Shown here: in pieces, positions 8,366-36,178 of the stretch
Layout: the number at the start of each line of letters is the position of its first letter
How positions within the stretch are numbered: position 1 is the first letter of the stretch
From: Caldilineales bacterium
GTDB taxonomy: Bacteria; Chloroflexota; Anaerolineae; J102
Assembly: GCA_019695115.1 (NCBI GenBank)
Contig: JAIBAP010000013.1
Span: forward strand, 1 to 36,178
Length of the DNA: 36,178 bases
Direction: 5' to 3'
The notes under the pieces: generated by a model
What the model was told of the DNA's origin: nothing
What the model saw: the letters and a program-made list of their open reading frames with translations, nothing else
Database searches by the model: none
Position numbers and translations under genes: made by a program

Positions 8366-8458
8366 GTGGCAGGTGGCAGGCCGCAAGTGGCAGAGCCTGT
8401 CCTGAGTGAAACGAAGGATGGCAGGTGGCAAGTGAGGCGTGAAACGTGAAACGTGAGA
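8366..8458 (+). repeat. Degenerate heptamer-period repeat (GTGGCAG / CGTGAAA)
   Basis: After the GT2 stop comes GTGGCAG, GTGGCAG, GCCGCAA, GTGGCAG, then less regular 7-mers including CCTGAGT, GAAACGA and AGGATGG, then CGTGAAA twice and CGTGAGA. The phase slips once near 8421. The inner phrase also recurs inverted near 22080-22125. Confidence 0.65.
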
Positions 8459-8595: not shown

Positions 8596-9408
8596 ATGCC
8601 CAACCCCTGGACCAACCCCGACCTGCTGCCGCCCGACGAGGCCCGCAGCCTGGCCCGCTTCATCGCCGCCCGCGCTGAAATCCCCGACCAGCGCCAGGCC
8701 TACGCCGCCCTGCTCGAAACCCTGGCGCCGCAACCCGGCGAACGGCTGCTGGACATGGGCTGCGGGGCCGGCAACCTGGCCCGGCGGCTGGCCGAACAGG
8801 TGGGCGAATCCGGCGAGGTGGTGGGGGCCGACATCAGCCAGGCCATGCTGGAAGTGGCGCGCGAGGGGTCGGCTTTGCCGCATCTGCGCTACGAACAGAC
8901 CGACGGCCTGGCTCTGCCCTTCCCCGCCGGCTACTTCGATGGCGCCATCCTTGCCCGCACCCTCATGCACGCACAGCACCCGCACGAGATCCTGGTCGAG
9001 TTGCGCCGGGTCGTGCGGCCCGGCGGCCGGCTGGCCATCCTGGAGGCCGATTGGGGGACGTGCACCGTCGACCACAGCAACCGGGCGCTCAGCCGCCGCA
9101 TCATCGACTGGCGCACCGACGCCATCGACGGCGACAACTGGATGGGCCGCCAACTGGTGGGGCGCTGTCTGGAGGCCGGATGGGAGATCGGCGCCGTCAG
9201 CATCCTCGCCACCATTGGCCGCAACGCCTCCACCACCCATTTCGGCAGCCTGCGCCGCTGCGCCGACCTGGCCATCCAGCACAGGATCATCACCCAGGCC
9301 GAGTACGACGCCTGGGTGGGCGAACTGGACGAGCGTTTGGCCGCCGGCCGCTTCTTCGCTACGATCAACGAAACTATTGTGCTGGCCCGCAAACCGGAGT
9401 TCATCTGA
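8596..9408 (+). CDS. Class I SAM-dependent methyltransferase
   Basis: This 270-aa protein is a UbiE/Methyltransf_11-type enzyme: SAM motif I LLDMGCGAGNLARRLAE, acidic loop GADIS, and a post-III LRRVVRPGGRLAILE. It begins MPNPWTNPDLLPPDEARSLA, as stand-alone small-molecule methylases do. The ATG directly follows a heptamer array with no SD; an in-frame ATG at 8446 would translate the array and is rejected. Lying among glycosyltransferases and radical SAM genes, it probably methylates the same product. The substrate is unknown. Confidence 0.8.
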   Translation: MPNPWTNPDLLPPDEARSLARFIAARAEIPDQRQAYAALLETLAPQPGERLLDMGCGAGNLARRLAEQVGESGEVVGADISQAMLEVAREGSALPHLRYEQTDGLALPFPAGYFDGAILARTLMHAQHPHEILVELRRVVRPGGRLAILEADWGTCTVDHSNRALSRRIIDWRTDAIDGDNWMGRQLVGRCLEAGWEIGAVSILATIGRNASTTHFGSLRRCADLAIQHRIITQAEYDAWVGELDERLAAGRFFATINETIVLARKPEFI

Positions 9409-9429
9409 GCGGCCCAAAGGAACGAAACC

Positions 9430-10422
9430 ATGCCCTATTCCGTTGGCATCGGCCTCACCAATGCCTGTAACCTGACCTGCGCCCATTGCTACCGCCCCAC
9501 CGACCGCATCGACTACGTGCCGCTGGCGGCCATCCAGACGATCTGCGAATCGCTGCCGGTGGGCAGCATGGGCATGGGCACGGGCGAGAACATCCTCCAC
9601 CCCGAATTTGGCGAGATCGTGCACTATCTGCACGGTCGCGGGGTCAAACTCAGCCTCGCCTCCAACGGCTTCGGCCTGACGGCGATGAGCGACGAGTTGT
9701 TGGGCATGTTCAACGACCTGGAGGTCTCGATCGATTATCCCACGCGGGCGCAGCAGGATGGGCTGCGCGGTGATGGCAACTGGGAGCTGGTGCACCGGGC
9801 CATCGACCGCTGCCATCGGGCGGGCAAGTCGGTGTCGATCCTGGCGACGCTGATGAAGACCAACTGCGACCAAATGGCCGAGATGGTGGCCCTTGCTCGC
9901 GGCTTGGGGGCGCATCTGCGAGTCAATGTCTATCAGGCCGTGCGCACCGACGCCTTCCGGCTGAGCTACGAGCAGTTCTGGCGGGCCTATCGCCAACTGT
10001 TCGAGGCCGGGCTGGTGGTAAGCTGCAGTGAGCCGATCGTGCGCGCAGTCATGGGCCTGCCAGATGTGGAATCGCCGTGCGGGCGCAACAGCATCCGCTT
10101 CGACATGCGCGGCCGCATCATCCCTTGCGTCTATTGGCCGGTGGATGGCGCCAATCCCTACACCGTGGCCGACCTGGTGGAGAAGCGAGAAGCGGTGCTC
10201 GACCACGCCTACTTCCAGCAAGCCCGCCGCCAACCTGAAGACGCCGCCCACTGCCCCTGCCAGGGTGGCTGCGCCAGCCGCCGCGCCCTCGACCACAAGC
10301 TGGACGGCCACGACGAGTACTGCCCCTGGGCGCACGGCGATGCCATCGACCTGCCCTGGCATCCCGCTCCAGCCGTCGATCTCGTCCGCAGCCGCAACGT
10401 CTGCACAACCATCGTGGTCTGA
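9430..10422 (+). CDS. Radical SAM enzyme with Cys-rich SPASM-like C terminus
   Basis: This 330-aa protein has the [4Fe-4S] motif C13-x3-C17-x2-C20 (CNLTCAHC), a MGTGENILHPEF segment in the place of the usual GGE, and a Cys-rich end: SPCGRNSIRF, IIPCVYWP, CPCQGGC and EYCPW, fitting auxiliary clusters of SPASM/twitch enzymes. The start ATG 9430 has AAAGGA upstream. The stop is followed by the 10473 array and a second radical SAM gene. No precursor peptide was found nearby; a role in small-molecule or glycan-linked chemistry is inference. Confidence 0.8.
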   Translation: MPYSVGIGLTNACNLTCAHCYRPTDRIDYVPLAAIQTICESLPVGSMGMGTGENILHPEFGEIVHYLHGRGVKLSLASNGFGLTAMSDELLGMFNDLEVSIDYPTRAQQDGLRGDGNWELVHRAIDRCHRAGKSVSILATLMKTNCDQMAEMVALARGLGAHLRVNVYQAVRTDAFRLSYEQFWRAYRQLFEAGLVVSCSEPIVRAVMGLPDVESPCGRNSIRFDMRGRIIPCVYWPVDGANPYTVADLVEKREAVLDHAYFQQARRQPEDAAHCPCQGGCASRRALDHKLDGHDEYCPWAHGDAIDLPWHPAPAVDLVRSRNVCTTIVV

Positions 10423-10472: not shown

Positions 10473-10661
10473 CACGCCTCACGCCTCACGCCTCACGCCT
10501 CACGCCTCACGCTTCACCCCTCACGCCTCACGCCCCACGCCTCACGCCCCACACTTCACGCTTCACGTTTCACGCCTCACGCTTCACGCCTCACACTTCA
10601 CGCCTCACGCCCCACGCCTCACGCCCCACGCCTCACGCCTCACGTTTCACGCCTCACGCCC
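10473..10661 (+). repeat. Perfect-register array of 27 heptamers (CACGCCT)
   Basis: Twenty-seven 7-mers follow one another without slippage: mainly CACGCCT, with CACGCCC, CACGCTT, CACGTTT, CACACTT and one CACCCCT. The array ends 2 nt before the ATG at 10664. Changes are mostly C/T transitions in the last three positions, while CAC stays fixed. Confidence 0.9.
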
Positions 10662-30568: not shown

Positions 30569-30635
30569 ACCTTAGTATACCTTAATAGTCATCGCTATAC
30601 AATTGCTGTTGTTTCCATCTCCGAGGAGCGATCCA

Positions 30636-31820
30636 ATGCCGTCAGCATCCCGCACGCCCACCCACCGCCAGCGCGTTCAGACTGCGTTGCGCCACCAACA
30701 GCCCGACCGCACCCCGGTCGATTTCCTGGCTACGCCCGAAATCTGGACGCGATTGGTGGAGCGCCTGGGCATCGAAGCCCCCGCCCCAGCCGAGGCCGAT
30801 TTCTTCGACCGGCGCTGGGAGGCCGTTCAGCAGCATTTCGAGGTGGACATGCGGCTGATCTCTTACGACCAGTTCTGCGCCCCGCCCGAATCGGCGCTGC
30901 ACCCCGGCGCCGAGGTCGATTGGTGGCATGCGCTCAGTCGCTCGACGCCAAACCGCATGTGGCGGCAGAAGCTGCCGGATGGCTCCTGGCGCGACATCTG
31001 GGGTCATGTGATCGGCATCGTCAATAATCCCACCGGCGCCTATGAGGAATTCAGCGAGTGGCCGCTGAGCAAGGCGCGCAGCGTCGAAGACCTGAAAAGC
31101 CATCCCTGGCCCAACCCCGACTGGTGGGATTTCAGCTCGCTGCCCAATTTGACCCGGCAGTACGAGGCGATGGGCGACTACTATCTGCGCTTCCGCATCG
31201 GCTCCGTCTTCGAGATCGCCTGGCAAATCCGGGGCATGCAGGAGTTTCTGATGGATTTGGTGAATCAGCCCCAGATCCCGGCCTACATCATGGAACGACT
31301 GACCGAAATCTATGTCGAGAACACCAAACGGGTGCTGGAGATCGCCGGGGATCGGCTGGATATGGTCTACTTCTACGATGATGTAGCGACGCAGAATTCG
31401 CTGATGATCTCGGAGCGGATGTGGCGCAAGCTCGTGCGCCCACTCCACGCCCGGCTGATCGAAGTCGCCAAGTCCTACGGCAAGCCGGTCATGTATCATT
31501 GCGACGGCGCCATCTACCGTCTCATCCCTGAGATCATCGACATGGGCGTGGATATGCTCAACCCGGTGCAGGCCGACGCCGCCGGCATGGATCCGCAGCG
31601 CCTGAAGGATCAGTTCGGCGACCGCCTGTGTTTTCATGGCGGCATCGACATCATCAAGACGCTGCCTCGCGGCACGGTGGACGACGTGCGCCACGAGGTG
31701 TCCGAACGCATCCGGGTGTTGGGCAACGGCGGCGGCTATGTCATGGCCAGCTCGCATCACATTCAATCGGATACGCCGTTGGATAACATTTTTGCCATGT
31801 ACGATCTGGCTTTGCGCTAG
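30636..31820 (+). CDS. Uroporphyrinogen decarboxylase (URO-D/MtaA) family protein
   Basis: This 394-aa TIM-barrel protein has the URO-D superfamily start (THRQRVQTALRHQQPDRTPV), VMYHCDGAIYRLIPEIIDMG and LNPVQADAAGMDPQRLKDQFG, then CFHGGIDIIKTLPRGT. The H-x-D/C region and the missing heme-pathway Arg pattern suggest a MtaA/CmuA-like or catabolic relative and not HemE. ATG 30636 follows GAGGAG. Such genes often sit beside ribose-type ABC transporters, where they are thought to act on the imported compound; the reaction is unknown. It is the first gene of the right-hand cluster. Confidence 0.85.
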   Translation: MPSASRTPTHRQRVQTALRHQQPDRTPVDFLATPEIWTRLVERLGIEAPAPAEADFFDRRWEAVQQHFEVDMRLISYDQFCAPPESALHPGAEVDWWHALSRSTPNRMWRQKLPDGSWRDIWGHVIGIVNNPTGAYEEFSEWPLSKARSVEDLKSHPWPNPDWWDFSSLPNLTRQYEAMGDYYLRFRIGSVFEIAWQIRGMQEFLMDLVNQPQIPAYIMERLTEIYVENTKRVLEIAGDRLDMVYFYDDVATQNSLMISERMWRKLVRPLHARLIEVAKSYGKPVMYHCDGAIYRLIPEIIDMGVDMLNPVQADAAGMDPQRLKDQFGDRLCFHGGIDIIKTLPRGTVDDVRHEVSERIRVLGNGGGYVMASSHHIQSDTPLDNIFAMYDLALR

Positions 31821-31957: not shown

Positions 31958-32755
31958 GTGTTCGATCGCACCGGGCCGACGCCTATCTACGTGCAGGTCA
32001 AAGAATGGATACGGCAACAAATCCTGAGCGGCGTCTGGCCCAGGCACTATCGGCTGCCCCCTGAGATCGACCTGGCCGCAACCTGGCAACTCAACCGGGG
32101 GACGGTGCGAAAGGCAATTGGGGAGCTGGTGGAGGAGGGGACGCTTCTGCGGACGCACGGGCGAGGGACTTTTGTCGCCTCCGACGCCCTGGATCAGGCG
32201 CTAGCCGAGCGTTTGGTAACCTTTTCGGAAGACCTGATCAACCGCGGCATTCCCTTTTCGACCAGGGTGTTGGAGCAAGTTGTATTGCACGCGCAGGAGG
32301 AGTTGGCTGCCAGATTCGAGCTATCACCTGAGGCAAAACTGTTCTTTCTCAAACGTCTGCGTCTGGTGGATGGCGTGCCGATCATCGTGCTGCACAACTA
32401 TGTCGTCTACGGCTACTGTCCAGGCATCGAAAGGGTTGATTTCACGCGCCATCGCTTGTTCGAGGTGTTGGAAAAGCACTTCGGGCTGCAATTGCACCAC
32501 GGGCGGCGTTGGTTTCAGGCGCAGCGCGCCGACGCCGAAGCCGCCGATCTGTTGGGCATCCCCGGCGGCGAGCCGGTGATGTACATCGAACAACGCTCGC
32601 AGTTGGAAGACAACGCCCTGGTCGAATTTTCGGAACTGTGGCTGCGCGGCGATCGTTTCCGGCTGACGGCAGAACTGCGGCGCGATGCGTTGCGCGCCGA
32701 CGCGGTGACACTGAACATGGTGCAGCATGCAGACAACGCCGTCCATTCGATCTAA
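31958..32755 (+). CDS. GntR family (HutC/UTRA) transcriptional regulator
   Basis: This 265-aa protein starts at GTG 31958 after GAAGGTG. Residues 8-75 are the GntR winged helix (PIYVQVKEWIRQQILSGVWP, LPPEIDLAATWQLNRGTVRK, LLRTHGRGTFV). Residues 95-235 are a UTRA ligand-binding domain (PVMYIEQRS, FSELWLRGDRFRL). It probably represses the surrounding transport genes and is released by a sugar or sugar phosphate. Both promoters with the TATACCTT box are candidate targets. Located 12 nt before the permease start. Confidence 0.92.
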   Translation: MFDRTGPTPIYVQVKEWIRQQILSGVWPRHYRLPPEIDLAATWQLNRGTVRKAIGELVEEGTLLRTHGRGTFVASDALDQALAERLVTFSEDLINRGIPFSTRVLEQVVLHAQEELAARFELSPEAKLFFLKRLRLVDGVPIIVLHNYVVYGYCPGIERVDFTRHRLFEVLEKHFGLQLHHGRRWFQAQRADAEAADLLGIPGGEPVMYIEQRSQLEDNALVEFSELWLRGDRFRLTAELRRDALRADAVTLNMVQHADNAVHSI

Positions 32756-32767
32756 GGAGCACTGACC

Positions 32768-33811
32768 GTGAGCGAACTGGCAACGACAGACACCGACAGT
32801 CACAGAGAAGCGATGGGGCTGGCAAACCGGGTGCGGAGGCTGTTCCTGGCGCGGGAGACGGGCGTCTTCATCGCCCTGCTCCTGATGTCTTTGTTCTTGT
32901 GGCAAGCCACGCCGGCCTTCATGAGCGTCCGCAATTTGCTCAATGTGGGCCGGCAGGTGTCGCTGCTGGGCATCATGGCCGTGGGCATGACCTTCGTCTT
33001 GATCAGCCGCGAGGTGGACCTGTCGGTGGGGGCCACCTACGCTCTGGCCGGGCTGACGGCGGGTATGTTGATCATCGCTGGCTGGAATCTCTGGCTGGCG
33101 ATTGCCGTTGGTCTGCTGATCGGCACGATCATCGGCGGCATCAACGGCGTCATCTCCACCTATGGTCTGCTGCCTTCTTTCATCACCACGCTCGGCATGA
33201 TGAGCGTGGTGCGCGGGATCGCTTTGCTCATCACCGATGGCCAGCCGGTGACGGTGAACGCGCAGAAGGGCGCCAATCCCGCCACATTGGAGACGTTCTA
33301 CTTCCTGGGCCAGGGCCAGCTCTTCGGCGTGATCCCGATGCAACTGGTGTTCTTCATCATTGTCGCCATCATGGGCTGGATTCTGCTCTCGCGCACCGTG
33401 TTCGGGTTCCGGGTCTATGCCGTGGGCGGGAGCGACAAAGCGGCGCGGGTGTCGGGCATCAAGGTCTTCAACATCAAAATCCTGGCCTTCGTGCTCATAG
33501 GCTTTCTGGCCGCGCTCTCTGGCATCCTCAGCCTGGCCTTTCTCCCCAGCGGTCAGGCCGGGCGCACGGGCGTCGGCACCGAATTGGACGTCATCGCTGC
33601 CGCCATCGTCGGCGGGGCATCGCTGAGCGGCGGCGAAGGCACCATCCTCGGCACCATCCTCGGTGTGCTGATCATCGGCGTGTTGCGCAATGGTTTGGTG
33701 CTCATGGGCATTTCTCCCTTCTGGCAACAGGCGATCATCGGCGCTGTCATCATCCTGGCCGTTGGCATCGACAAATGGACGGGCGTCCGCCGCCGAGCCG
33801 CGCGTCGCTAA
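32768..33811 (+). CDS. Ribose-type sugar ABC transporter permease (RbsC-like)
   Basis: This 347-aa protein has eight or more membrane helices and the family stretches LNVGRQVSLLGIMAVGMTFV with SREVDLSVGA, GINGVISTYGLLPSFITTLG, YAVGGSDKAARVSGIKV, and the coupling region IVGGASLSGGEGT. Start GTG 32768 follows AAGGAG. It forms the membrane channel of a CUT2-class importer with the binding protein at 33901 and the ATPase at 36010. Length is slightly long at the N terminus. Confidence 0.93.
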   Translation: MSELATTDTDSHREAMGLANRVRRLFLARETGVFIALLLMSLFLWQATPAFMSVRNLLNVGRQVSLLGIMAVGMTFVLISREVDLSVGATYALAGLTAGMLIIAGWNLWLAIAVGLLIGTIIGGINGVISTYGLLPSFITTLGMMSVVRGIALLITDGQPVTVNAQKGANPATLETFYFLGQGQLFGVIPMQLVFFIIVAIMGWILLSRTVFGFRVYAVGGSDKAARVSGIKVFNIKILAFVLIGFLAALSGILSLAFLPSGQAGRTGVGTELDVIAAAIVGGASLSGGEGTILGTILGVLIIGVLRNGLVLMGISPFWQQAIIGAVIILAVGIDKWTGVRRRAARR

Positions 33812-33900: not shown

Positions 33901-35892
33901 ATGAAGCACAAAATTCGATTCGTTCCCCTCTTCGTGGTCGTGATCCTGGCGCTCTTGCTGGCCGCCTGCGCGGCTCCCGCGCCTGCGCCCGCCACCCAGG
34001 CCCCCGCCGAACCGACCGCAGCCCCGACCGCAGCCCCGACCGCAGAGCCAACAGCGGCCCCGACCGAGGCGCCAACCGCAGCGCCAGCGGAAGGTGCGTT
34101 CACGCTGGCGCCGGCCATCGCCGACGACGTGAAGGCAGGCAAGCCGCTGAAGATCTACGTCTCGTACCACGATGTCTCCAACGAGTTCGCGCCCTTCCTC
34201 AAGGCCGGCGTCGAGAAGGCCGCCGCCGACCTGGGCGTGGAGGCCAAATTCGTCGGCCCTGTCGGCGCTGACGCCGAGAAGCAGATCGCCGAACTGGAGA
34301 ACCTGGTGCAGGCAGGCGTGGATGGCCTGGCCATCTCCTCGGTCAGCACCGACGCCCTCGCCCCCGTCATCAACCGCTTCCTCGAGGCCGGCATCCCGGT
34401 CGTCACCTACAACACCGACAACCCCGACTCCAACCGCCTTGCCTTCGCCGGCCAAGACCTGGTCACCTCCGGCTACGAGGCCGCCAAAGTCCTGGCCGAA
34501 CTCCTCGGCGGCAAAGGTGACGTCATCATCACCACCCTCGACGCCGCCGCCCAGTGGTCCATCGACCGCGAGAAAGGCGCTCGCCAGGGCTTCGCCGAGT
34601 ACCCCGACATCAAAGTCCTCACCACCGTCAACACCGGCACCGAACCCCAGCAGATCTACGCCGCCGTCGAGAACGCCATGCTCGCCAACCCCACCGTCAC
34701 CGGCGCCCTCTCGCTGGAATGCTGCTCGACCCCGGCCCTGGGTGAATACGTCAAGCGCAACAACCTCAAGGACAAGGTCACCGTTGTCGGCTTCGATGAA
34801 CTGCCCGCCACCCTCGAATTGATCAAGGACGGCTACATCGCCGGCTCCGTCTCCCAGGCCCCCGAACGCCAGGGCTACGAGGCCGTCAACATGCTCGTCA
34901 AGTTCCTCAAAGAGGGCCAGGCCGCCAGCGTCGATACCGGCATCGAGGTCATCGACCTCAAAAACCTCGACAAATACCTGGGCGGGGAGGCCGCAGCGCC
35001 GGCGTTCACGCTGGCGCCGGCCATCGCCGACGACGTGAAGGCAGGTAAGCCGCTGAAGATCTACGTCTCGTACCACGATGTCTCCAACGAGTTCGCACCC
35101 TTCCTCAAGGCCGGCGTCGAGAAGGCCGCCGCCGACCTGGGTGTGGAGGCCAAGTTCGTCGGCCCTGTCGGCGCTGACGCCGAGAAGCAGATCGCCGAAC
35201 TGGAGAACCTGGTGCAGGCAGGCGTGGATGGCCTGGCCATCTCCTCGGTCAGCACCGACGCCCTCGCCCCCGTCATCAACCGCTTCCTCGAGGCCGGCAT
35301 CCCGGTCGTCACCTACAACACCGACAACCCCGACTCCAACCGCCTTGCCTTCGCCGGCCAAGACCTGGTCACCTCCGGCTACGAGGCCGCCAAAGTCCTG
35401 GCCGAACTCCTCGGCGGCAAAGGTGACGTCATCATCACCACCCTCGACGCCGCCGCCCAGTGGTCCATCGACCGCGAGAAAGGCGCTCGCCAGGGCTTCG
35501 CCGAGTACCCCGACATCAAAGTCCTCACCACCGTCAACACCGGCACCGAACCCCAGCAGATCTACGCCGCCGTCGAGAACGCCATGCTCGCCAACCCCAC
35601 CGTCACCGGCGCCCTCTCGCTGGAATGCTGCTCGACCCCGGCCCTGGGTGAATACGTCAAGCGCAACAACCTCAAGGACAAGGTCACCGTTGTCGGCTTC
35701 GATGAACTGCCCGCCACCCTCGAATTGATCAAGGACGGCTACATCGCCGGCTCCGTCTCCCAGGCCCCCGAACGCCAGGGCTACGAGGCCGTCAACATGC
35801 TCGTCAAGTTCCTCAAAGAGGGCCAGGCCGCCAGCGTCGATACCGGCATCGAGGTCATCGACCTCAAAAACCTCGACAAATACCTGAAGTAG
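33901..35892 (+). CDS. Substrate-binding lipoprotein with two near-identical binding domains
   Basis: This 663-aa protein has a lipoprotein signal (LLLAAC, lipid-anchored C23), a Pro/Thr/Ala linker (24-65), then two CUT2-type periplasmic binding domains in tandem. Each has KIYVSYHDVSNEFAPFLKAG, DGLAISSVSTDALAPVINRF, GIPVVTYNTDNPDSNRLAFA and KVTVVGFDELPATLELIKDG. The second copy begins at residue 369, offset by exactly 302 codons, joined by GGEAAAPA. The copies are identical in protein sequence. Start ATG 33901 follows GGAGG. Binding proteins of this class normally have one such domain. Confidence 0.9.
   Translation: MKHKIRFVPLFVVVILALLLAACAAPAPAPATQAPAEPTAAPTAAPTAEPTAAPTEAPTAAPAEGAFTLAPAIADDVKAGKPLKIYVSYHDVSNEFAPFLKAGVEKAAADLGVEAKFVGPVGADAEKQIAELENLVQAGVDGLAISSVSTDALAPVINRFLEAGIPVVTYNTDNPDSNRLAFAGQDLVTSGYEAAKVLAELLGGKGDVIITTLDAAAQWSIDREKGARQGFAEYPDIKVLTTVNTGTEPQQIYAAVENAMLANPTVTGALSLECCSTPALGEYVKRNNLKDKVTVVGFDELPATLELIKDGYIAGSVSQAPERQGYEAVNMLVKFLKEGQAASVDTGIEVIDLKNLDKYLGGEAAAPAFTLAPAIADDVKAGKPLKIYVSYHDVSNEFAPFLKAGVEKAAADLGVEAKFVGPVGADAEKQIAELENLVQAGVDGLAISSVSTDALAPVINRFLEAGIPVVTYNTDNPDSNRLAFAGQDLVTSGYEAAKVLAELLGGKGDVIITTLDAAAQWSIDREKGARQGFAEYPDIKVLTTVNTGTEPQQIYAAVENAMLANPTVTGALSLECCSTPALGEYVKRNNLKDKVTVVGFDELPATLELIKDGYIAGSVSQAPERQGYEAVNMLVKFLKEGQAASVDTGIEVIDLKNLDKYLK
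34099..35886 (+). repeat. 906-bp in-frame tandem duplication in the binding-protein gene
   Basis: Unit 1 is 34099-35004 and unit 2 starts at 35005. By eye they differ at four third-codon positions only, all within the first 170 bp (GGC/GGT, GCG/GCA, GGC/GGT, AAA/AAG); the remaining roughly 700 bp appear identical. This means a very recent event, gene conversion, or an assembly artefact. Confidence 0.88.

Positions 35893-35920: not shown

Positions 35921-36178
<258 letters not shown>

Follow-up and report, generated by a model that had tools for sequence, protein, structure and literature searches.

The window, meaning the whole stretch of 36,178 nucleotides that was analysed, belongs to contig C13 of a Caldilineales genome (G000) and carries part of a sugar-import operon at its 3′ end. 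The genes and features of this region are as follows.

30603..31820, forward strand: gene for a URO-D/MtaA-like protein (PF01208), operon neighbour
31958..32755, forward strand: GntR/UTRA transcriptional regulator (PF00392 and PF07702)
32768..33811, forward strand: RbsC-like permease, with PF02653 (BPD_transp_2) at 32768-33808
33901..35892, forward strand: tandem substrate-binding lipoprotein, 663 aa and stop (CDS translation, Pfam)
33901..33969, forward strand: predicted signal peptide up to the lipobox LAAC with lipidated Cys23 (translation, by inspection)
33970..34095, forward strand: Ala/Pro/Thr-rich tether from the lipid anchor to the first domain (translation, 12-nt repeats)
34096..34980, forward strand: binding domain copy 1, 295 codons, with PF13407 at 34153-34917
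34249..34980, forward strand: 732-nt exact stretch, equal to 35155-35886 (exact-run comparison)
34981..35001, forward strand: linker GGEAAAP between the copies, 7 codons (translation)
35002..35886, forward strand: second copy of the binding domain, 295 codons, with the protein sequence of copy 1 and PF13407 at 35059-35823
35926..35989, forward strand: strong hairpin in the gap that separates the binding-protein gene from the ATPase gene (z -6.8), built from an ACGTGAA-like heptamer repeat
36010..36178, forward strand: start of the RbsA-like ATPase gene, which runs on to C13:37527
C13:37806-38735, on the contig beyond the window: PfkB kinase after the RbsA-like ATPase gene

The order of GntR regulator, RbsC-like permease, 663-aa binding protein, RbsA-like ATPase and PfkB kinase, together with the domain families, resembles that of CUT2/RbsABC importers (Peripla_BP_4, BPD_transp_2 and double-cassette ATPase). 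The BPD_transp_2 permease adjoins the binding-protein gene, and the ATPase has two ABC cassettes on one chain (PF00005 in two stretches, L178:6010-7524). Standard binding proteins of these importers have one domain, whereas the 663-aa protein is an in-frame duplicate. Ribose and arabinose permease models were the best NCBIfam matches of the permease, all below cut-off, and no NCBIfam equivalog model reached its cut-off on the sugar importer (best TIGR02637, 146 bits against 342). The operon is syntenic with that on contig L015 of G010, a genome from the source organism's own family and the closest relative with this gene order, where the counterpart is 82% identical and has a single domain; the duplication is therefore not needed in such an operon. 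In this relative, the URO-D/MtaA-like gene lies 3′ of the operon (9012-10223). The hairpin at 35926-35989 possibly stabilises mRNA and could favour the binding protein over the ATPase at the mRNA level. The heptamers ACGTGAA/GCGTGAA occur 11 times in intergenic spots of the window (35922-35989, 8437-8456 and 10556-10652), against 0.4 expected.

The 663-aa protein begins with a signal peptide and a lipobox with its cysteine, MKHKIRFVPLFVVVILALLLAAC, both recognised by inspection only, followed by the tether, in which a PT-repeat match stayed below the Pfam cut-off. Peripla_BP_4 (PF13407) matched in two stretches with 418 bits against a cut-off of 35.1, covering profile positions 1-256 of 258 in each half. 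The closest PDB relatives were Thermotoga sugar-binding proteins (E 1e-37). With a lipobox and two full PF13407 domains in one CDS, the initial annotation's description of a 663-aa protein bearing two binding domains on one lipid anchor holds. The block 34096-34980 recurs at 35002-35886 with an offset of 906 bp (302 codons). What had been called an exact 302-codon duplication is indeed a duplication with a 302-codon period, but the period comprises a duplicated block of 295 codons and the 7-codon linker, and the block is exact at the protein level only. As had also been noticed, the copies differ at four nucleotides at the 5′ edge of the unit (34140, 34191, 34236 and 34248, compared with +906), all at third positions, synonymous and inside the first 153 nt; the following 732 nt are exact. 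An 885-bp direct repeat at 99.5% identity rules out chance, and the duplication is confirmed as real in the sequence.

About ten binding proteins of the source genome contain two or three in-frame copies with 81-99.7% nucleotide identity, namely seven Peripla_BP_4 proteins above the cut-off, the weak C33 (below the Pfam cut-off) and two SBP_bac_1 proteins. Re-alignment of the copies within proteins by split-half Smith-Waterman gave nucleotide identities of 81.5% (C43a), 86.3% (C35), 95.9% (C16), 96.9% (C40), 97.4% (C43b), 98.5% (C3, SBP_bac_1), 99.2% (C3 triple), 99.3% (C24), 99.4-99.5% (C13, the 33901-35892 gene) and 99.7% (C33). No tandem repeat of at least 300 nt averaging at least 80% identity was found at offsets of 200-4000 nt in 800 kb of other DNA of this genome, sampled as 40 stretches of 20 kb. 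In the triple binding protein of C3 (L177:6814-9753), copies 2 and 3 were assembled fully identical, and copy 1 differs at 8 synonymous sites only, near the 5′ edge. Either the assembly passed through a loop twice here, or the gene is truly triplicated.

Relatives in the class also carry tandem copies: three copies occur in two proteins of G001 and in one of G008, and doubles occur in G002, G005, G015 and G025. Across the class sample, 22 multi-domain proteins were found among about 150 matches listed, compared with none among about 150 matches from ten alphaproteobacterial genomes rich in Peripla_BP_4 (Fisher p ~1e-8). The tandem Peripla_BP_4/SBP_bac_1 proteins of the class share the architecture of the 663-aa protein, with two to three in-frame copies and often a lipobox, but copy age differs (copy identity about 70-99.7% at the nucleotide level) and some orthologues have no lipobox. 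The doubles G113 C108, G122 C10 and G072 C17 have no exact run longer than 66 nt between copies, so that short reads resolve the copies unambiguously. In G084, a genome of three contigs, a double lipoprotein of 747 aa is encoded in the interior of a contig of 1.0 Mb; its copies are 94.8% identical, with differences spread along the unit. The tandem duplication is neither an isolated oddity nor a plain assembly artefact, and in-gene doubling or tripling appears to be a genuine means, used repeatedly, of adding binding sites per anchor. Tandem free binding lipoproteins of Chloroflexota were not described in the literature searched; this absence is not proof.

Contig ends may point to further cases. 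Two Chloroflexota contigs (L047 and L065, near 5000 to the end) stop just inside the second copy, and seven more (L069-L072, L081, L082 and L089) end within the orthologous gene. Contig ends thus fell inside the binding-protein gene in 9/16 Chloroflexota records against 1/48 from other phyla (p 4e-6), an excess of which part may be fragmentation because the Chloroflexota records are mostly MAGs. Such ends can serve in practice to flag tandem repeats that are hidden in MAGs. Short-read genomes mask copy number and divergence in tandem genes and break contigs there; therefore, tandem binding proteins are under-counted in MAGs. In L047 and L065 the orthologue starts with an ordinary signal peptide (AHAQ/AQAQ) in place of a lipobox, which indicates that tandem domains do not depend on lipid anchoring.

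In a tree of 71 domains, copies 1 and 2 of the 33901-35892 gene were sisters, placed beside the single-domain G010 orthologue. The double of L016 (Bin_81R), in the same orthologue group, paired with itself, and may represent either a separate event or separate homogenisation. The orthologue sets C16/C204/C497 and C35/C9 clustered per genome and not per position, indicating repeated duplication or homogenisation. The set of C43a, G001 C151, G005 C122 and G008 C5, however, kept domain 1 with domain 1 (100/100), and the C43a-type pair is therefore older than the split of four genera; its domains in C43a differ at about 20% of residues. For other genes, copy number varies among same-genus orthologues, with two copies in the source genome against three. 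dN/dS between copies ran from 0 to 0.46, and was 0.04-0.46 where measurable, so that both copies are under constraint, but this purifying selection fits a dosage benefit and ordinary maintenance alike and does not distinguish them.

The identity of the copies has to be read against the assembly. Contig ends of the source genome overlap by exactly 127 nt (C6/C12 and C11/C15), which makes the genome look like a de Bruijn assembly of short reads at k=127, probably by an assembler of the SPAdes type. Eight near-identical pairs in this genome each contain one exact run longer than 127 nt (338 to 1538 nt), all other runs being at most 119 nt; their differences lie at unit edges, and none has at least 127 identical nt on both sides. 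In simulations with uniformly placed differences at 0.5-1% divergence, about 9/10 pairs gave two or more exact runs longer than 127 nt, and the uniform divergence model was rejected for these pairs (longest-run P <=0.0015). Because the 732-nt exact stretch exceeds k, its exactness is not independently established, and because a graph loop can be walked once or more, copy number is the assembler's choice. The initial annotation had deduced very recent copying or conversion from the edge-only differences. This deduction does not survive as the only reading, since one run longer than 127 nt per pair is the footprint of graph collapse at k=127.

These observations bear on two alternatives concerning the repeat itself. 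One is that the duplication is an assembly artefact and the true gene has a single domain, for which the k=127 short-read assembly, a repeat longer than k and the existence of single-domain relatives could be invoked. However, a de Bruijn assembler could, we reason, join copy 1, linker and copy 2 only if that junction was present in reads. The same architecture occurs with clearly diverged copies in independent assemblies, including the 1.0-Mb contig of G084, and the breaks within the gene are what would be expected if such repeats break assemblies. We consider a pure artefact, which had been flagged for exclusion, extremely improbable and reject it on the independent, diverged and highly contiguous examples; what stands of that caution is that the perfect identity may be inflated by collapse. 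The other alternative, possible though it falls somewhat short of an even chance, is that the copies are truly identical over 732 nt through very recent duplication or ongoing gene conversion. The per-genome clustering in the tree fits homogenisation or repeated duplication. Gene conversion is weaker beside heterologous flanks, and differences confined to edges can arise either by conversion that spares repeat edges or by bubble removal at repeat collapse. The match to k favours collapse: in 8/8 near-identical pairs no difference has flanks of at least 127 identical nt to its left and right, a pattern that does not require very recent copying. Recent divergence spread uniformly is rejected as the sole cause for these pairs, and the differences in the G084 double are spread along its unit. 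The identity of the two copies would thus stem at least partly from repeat collapse.

Two further alternatives concern what the second domain is for. Frequent slippage or unequal crossing-over in CUT2 binding genes might carry along a selectively neutral extra domain, as could be suspected from the relative that retains one copy in the same operon and from the copy number differences between close species. We regard this as rather unlikely, since the tandem repeats cluster in binding-protein genes and did not turn up in the 800 kb of other sequence, neither domain of the old pairs has decayed and their dN/dS is far under 1, and one pair was kept across four genera. It is also conceivable that the two domains have different jobs, such as docking versus scaffolding or sensing, or bind different ligands. 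The two domains of GlnPQ differ in specificity (PMC8025302), and the residue differences between the C43a domains would be compatible with such a division. In the 663-aa protein, however, the domain sequences are identical, so that position alone could differentiate them, and a division of labour there is very doubtful.

We instead favour, as a reasonably probable explanation, recurrent in-frame tandem duplication of a CUT2-type (ribose/sugar-type) binding domain, by which each anchor would hold more binding sites close to the permease. In this reading, the complete binding domain of the ABC importer was duplicated in frame within its own gene, so that one exported lipoprotein displays two equivalent domains on a single Ala/Pro/Thr-rich tether. 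Both domains may bind the same sugar and alternate in docking on the permease. Two domains on one tether would mean twice the binding sites per chain near the permease, which may raise the number of loaded sites there per secreted and lipidated chain, and an increase in capture rate is plausible. Recombination between the repeats would change the copy number, as suggested by two copies here against one in the G010 orthologue, and by two against three among same-genus orthologues of other genes.

Characterised importers offer partial parallels for this explanation. The 663-aa protein shares with GlnPQ of Lactococcus lactis (SBD1-SBD2) a pair of complete, consecutive binding domains on a single membrane-tethered chain that serves one ABC importer. 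In GlnPQ the tandem domains bind independently and show no cooperativity, and the length of the linker affects transport (PMC8025302). However, GlnPQ domains belong to SBP cluster F-IV, have diverged in specificity and are fused to the transmembrane subunit, whereas those of the 663-aa protein are protein-identical Peripla_BP_4 domains on a separate lipoprotein. We therefore do not assign the system to the GlnPQ-like importers: it has the tandem but not the fusion, the binding protein being a separate CDS with its own lipobox and the permease a separate gene. OpuA of L. lactis also presents two identical binding domains per transporter complex, and the tethered domains are held at an effective concentration of about 4 mM (PMC11065425). 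In OpuA the domains come from two chains, one per transmembrane subunit, while both domains of the 663-aa protein are on one lipid-anchored chain.

Binding domains are also joined to other proteins in these genomes. Between the two ABC cassettes of a sugar ABC ATPase of about 850-874 aa lies a binding domain of unit length in circularly permuted order (profile 68-257, then 1-63), at the following places.

L169:4925-7549 (G000 C24:23924-26548): ATPase with inserted binding domain
L236:2595-5147 (G001 C18): ATPase with inserted binding domain
L287:3123-5684 (G159): ATPase with inserted binding domain
L288:1382-3943 (G127): ATPase with inserted binding domain

The insert is at the same place in four genomes from three families, with dN/dS of about 0.2 between G000 and G001. 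It shows 62% identity to the part of the neighbouring tandem protein between the middle of domain 1 and the middle of domain 2, linker included. A cytoplasmic ATPase seems to have taken up a piece of a tandem array, which could be more surprising than the tandem lipoprotein itself. DeoR-family regulators fused to a Peripla_BP_4 domain were found in the source genome at L174:3285-5207 (C16) and L171:2126-3937 (C18), in two orders (HTH-DeoRC-binding domain and HTH-binding domain-DeoRC). Among the matches listed, relatives too have single-match frames of roughly 570-645 aa.

A broader and more speculative proposal, which we hold to be unlikely as it stands, is that the number of domains per lipoprotein (one, two, three or more) is a fast-changing dosage setting in this class, in which in-gene repeat recombination would raise or lower the number of sites on each anchor across many sugar importers simultaneously, and neighbouring genes would capture array slices, as in the ABC ATPase with the inserted domain. 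Tandem binding domains have so far been known mainly as transporter fusions, such as GlnPQ. With its repeated doubling or tripling of free binding lipoproteins, this class would offer many natural replicates in which to ask whether uptake is limited by how many binding sites lie close to the permease.
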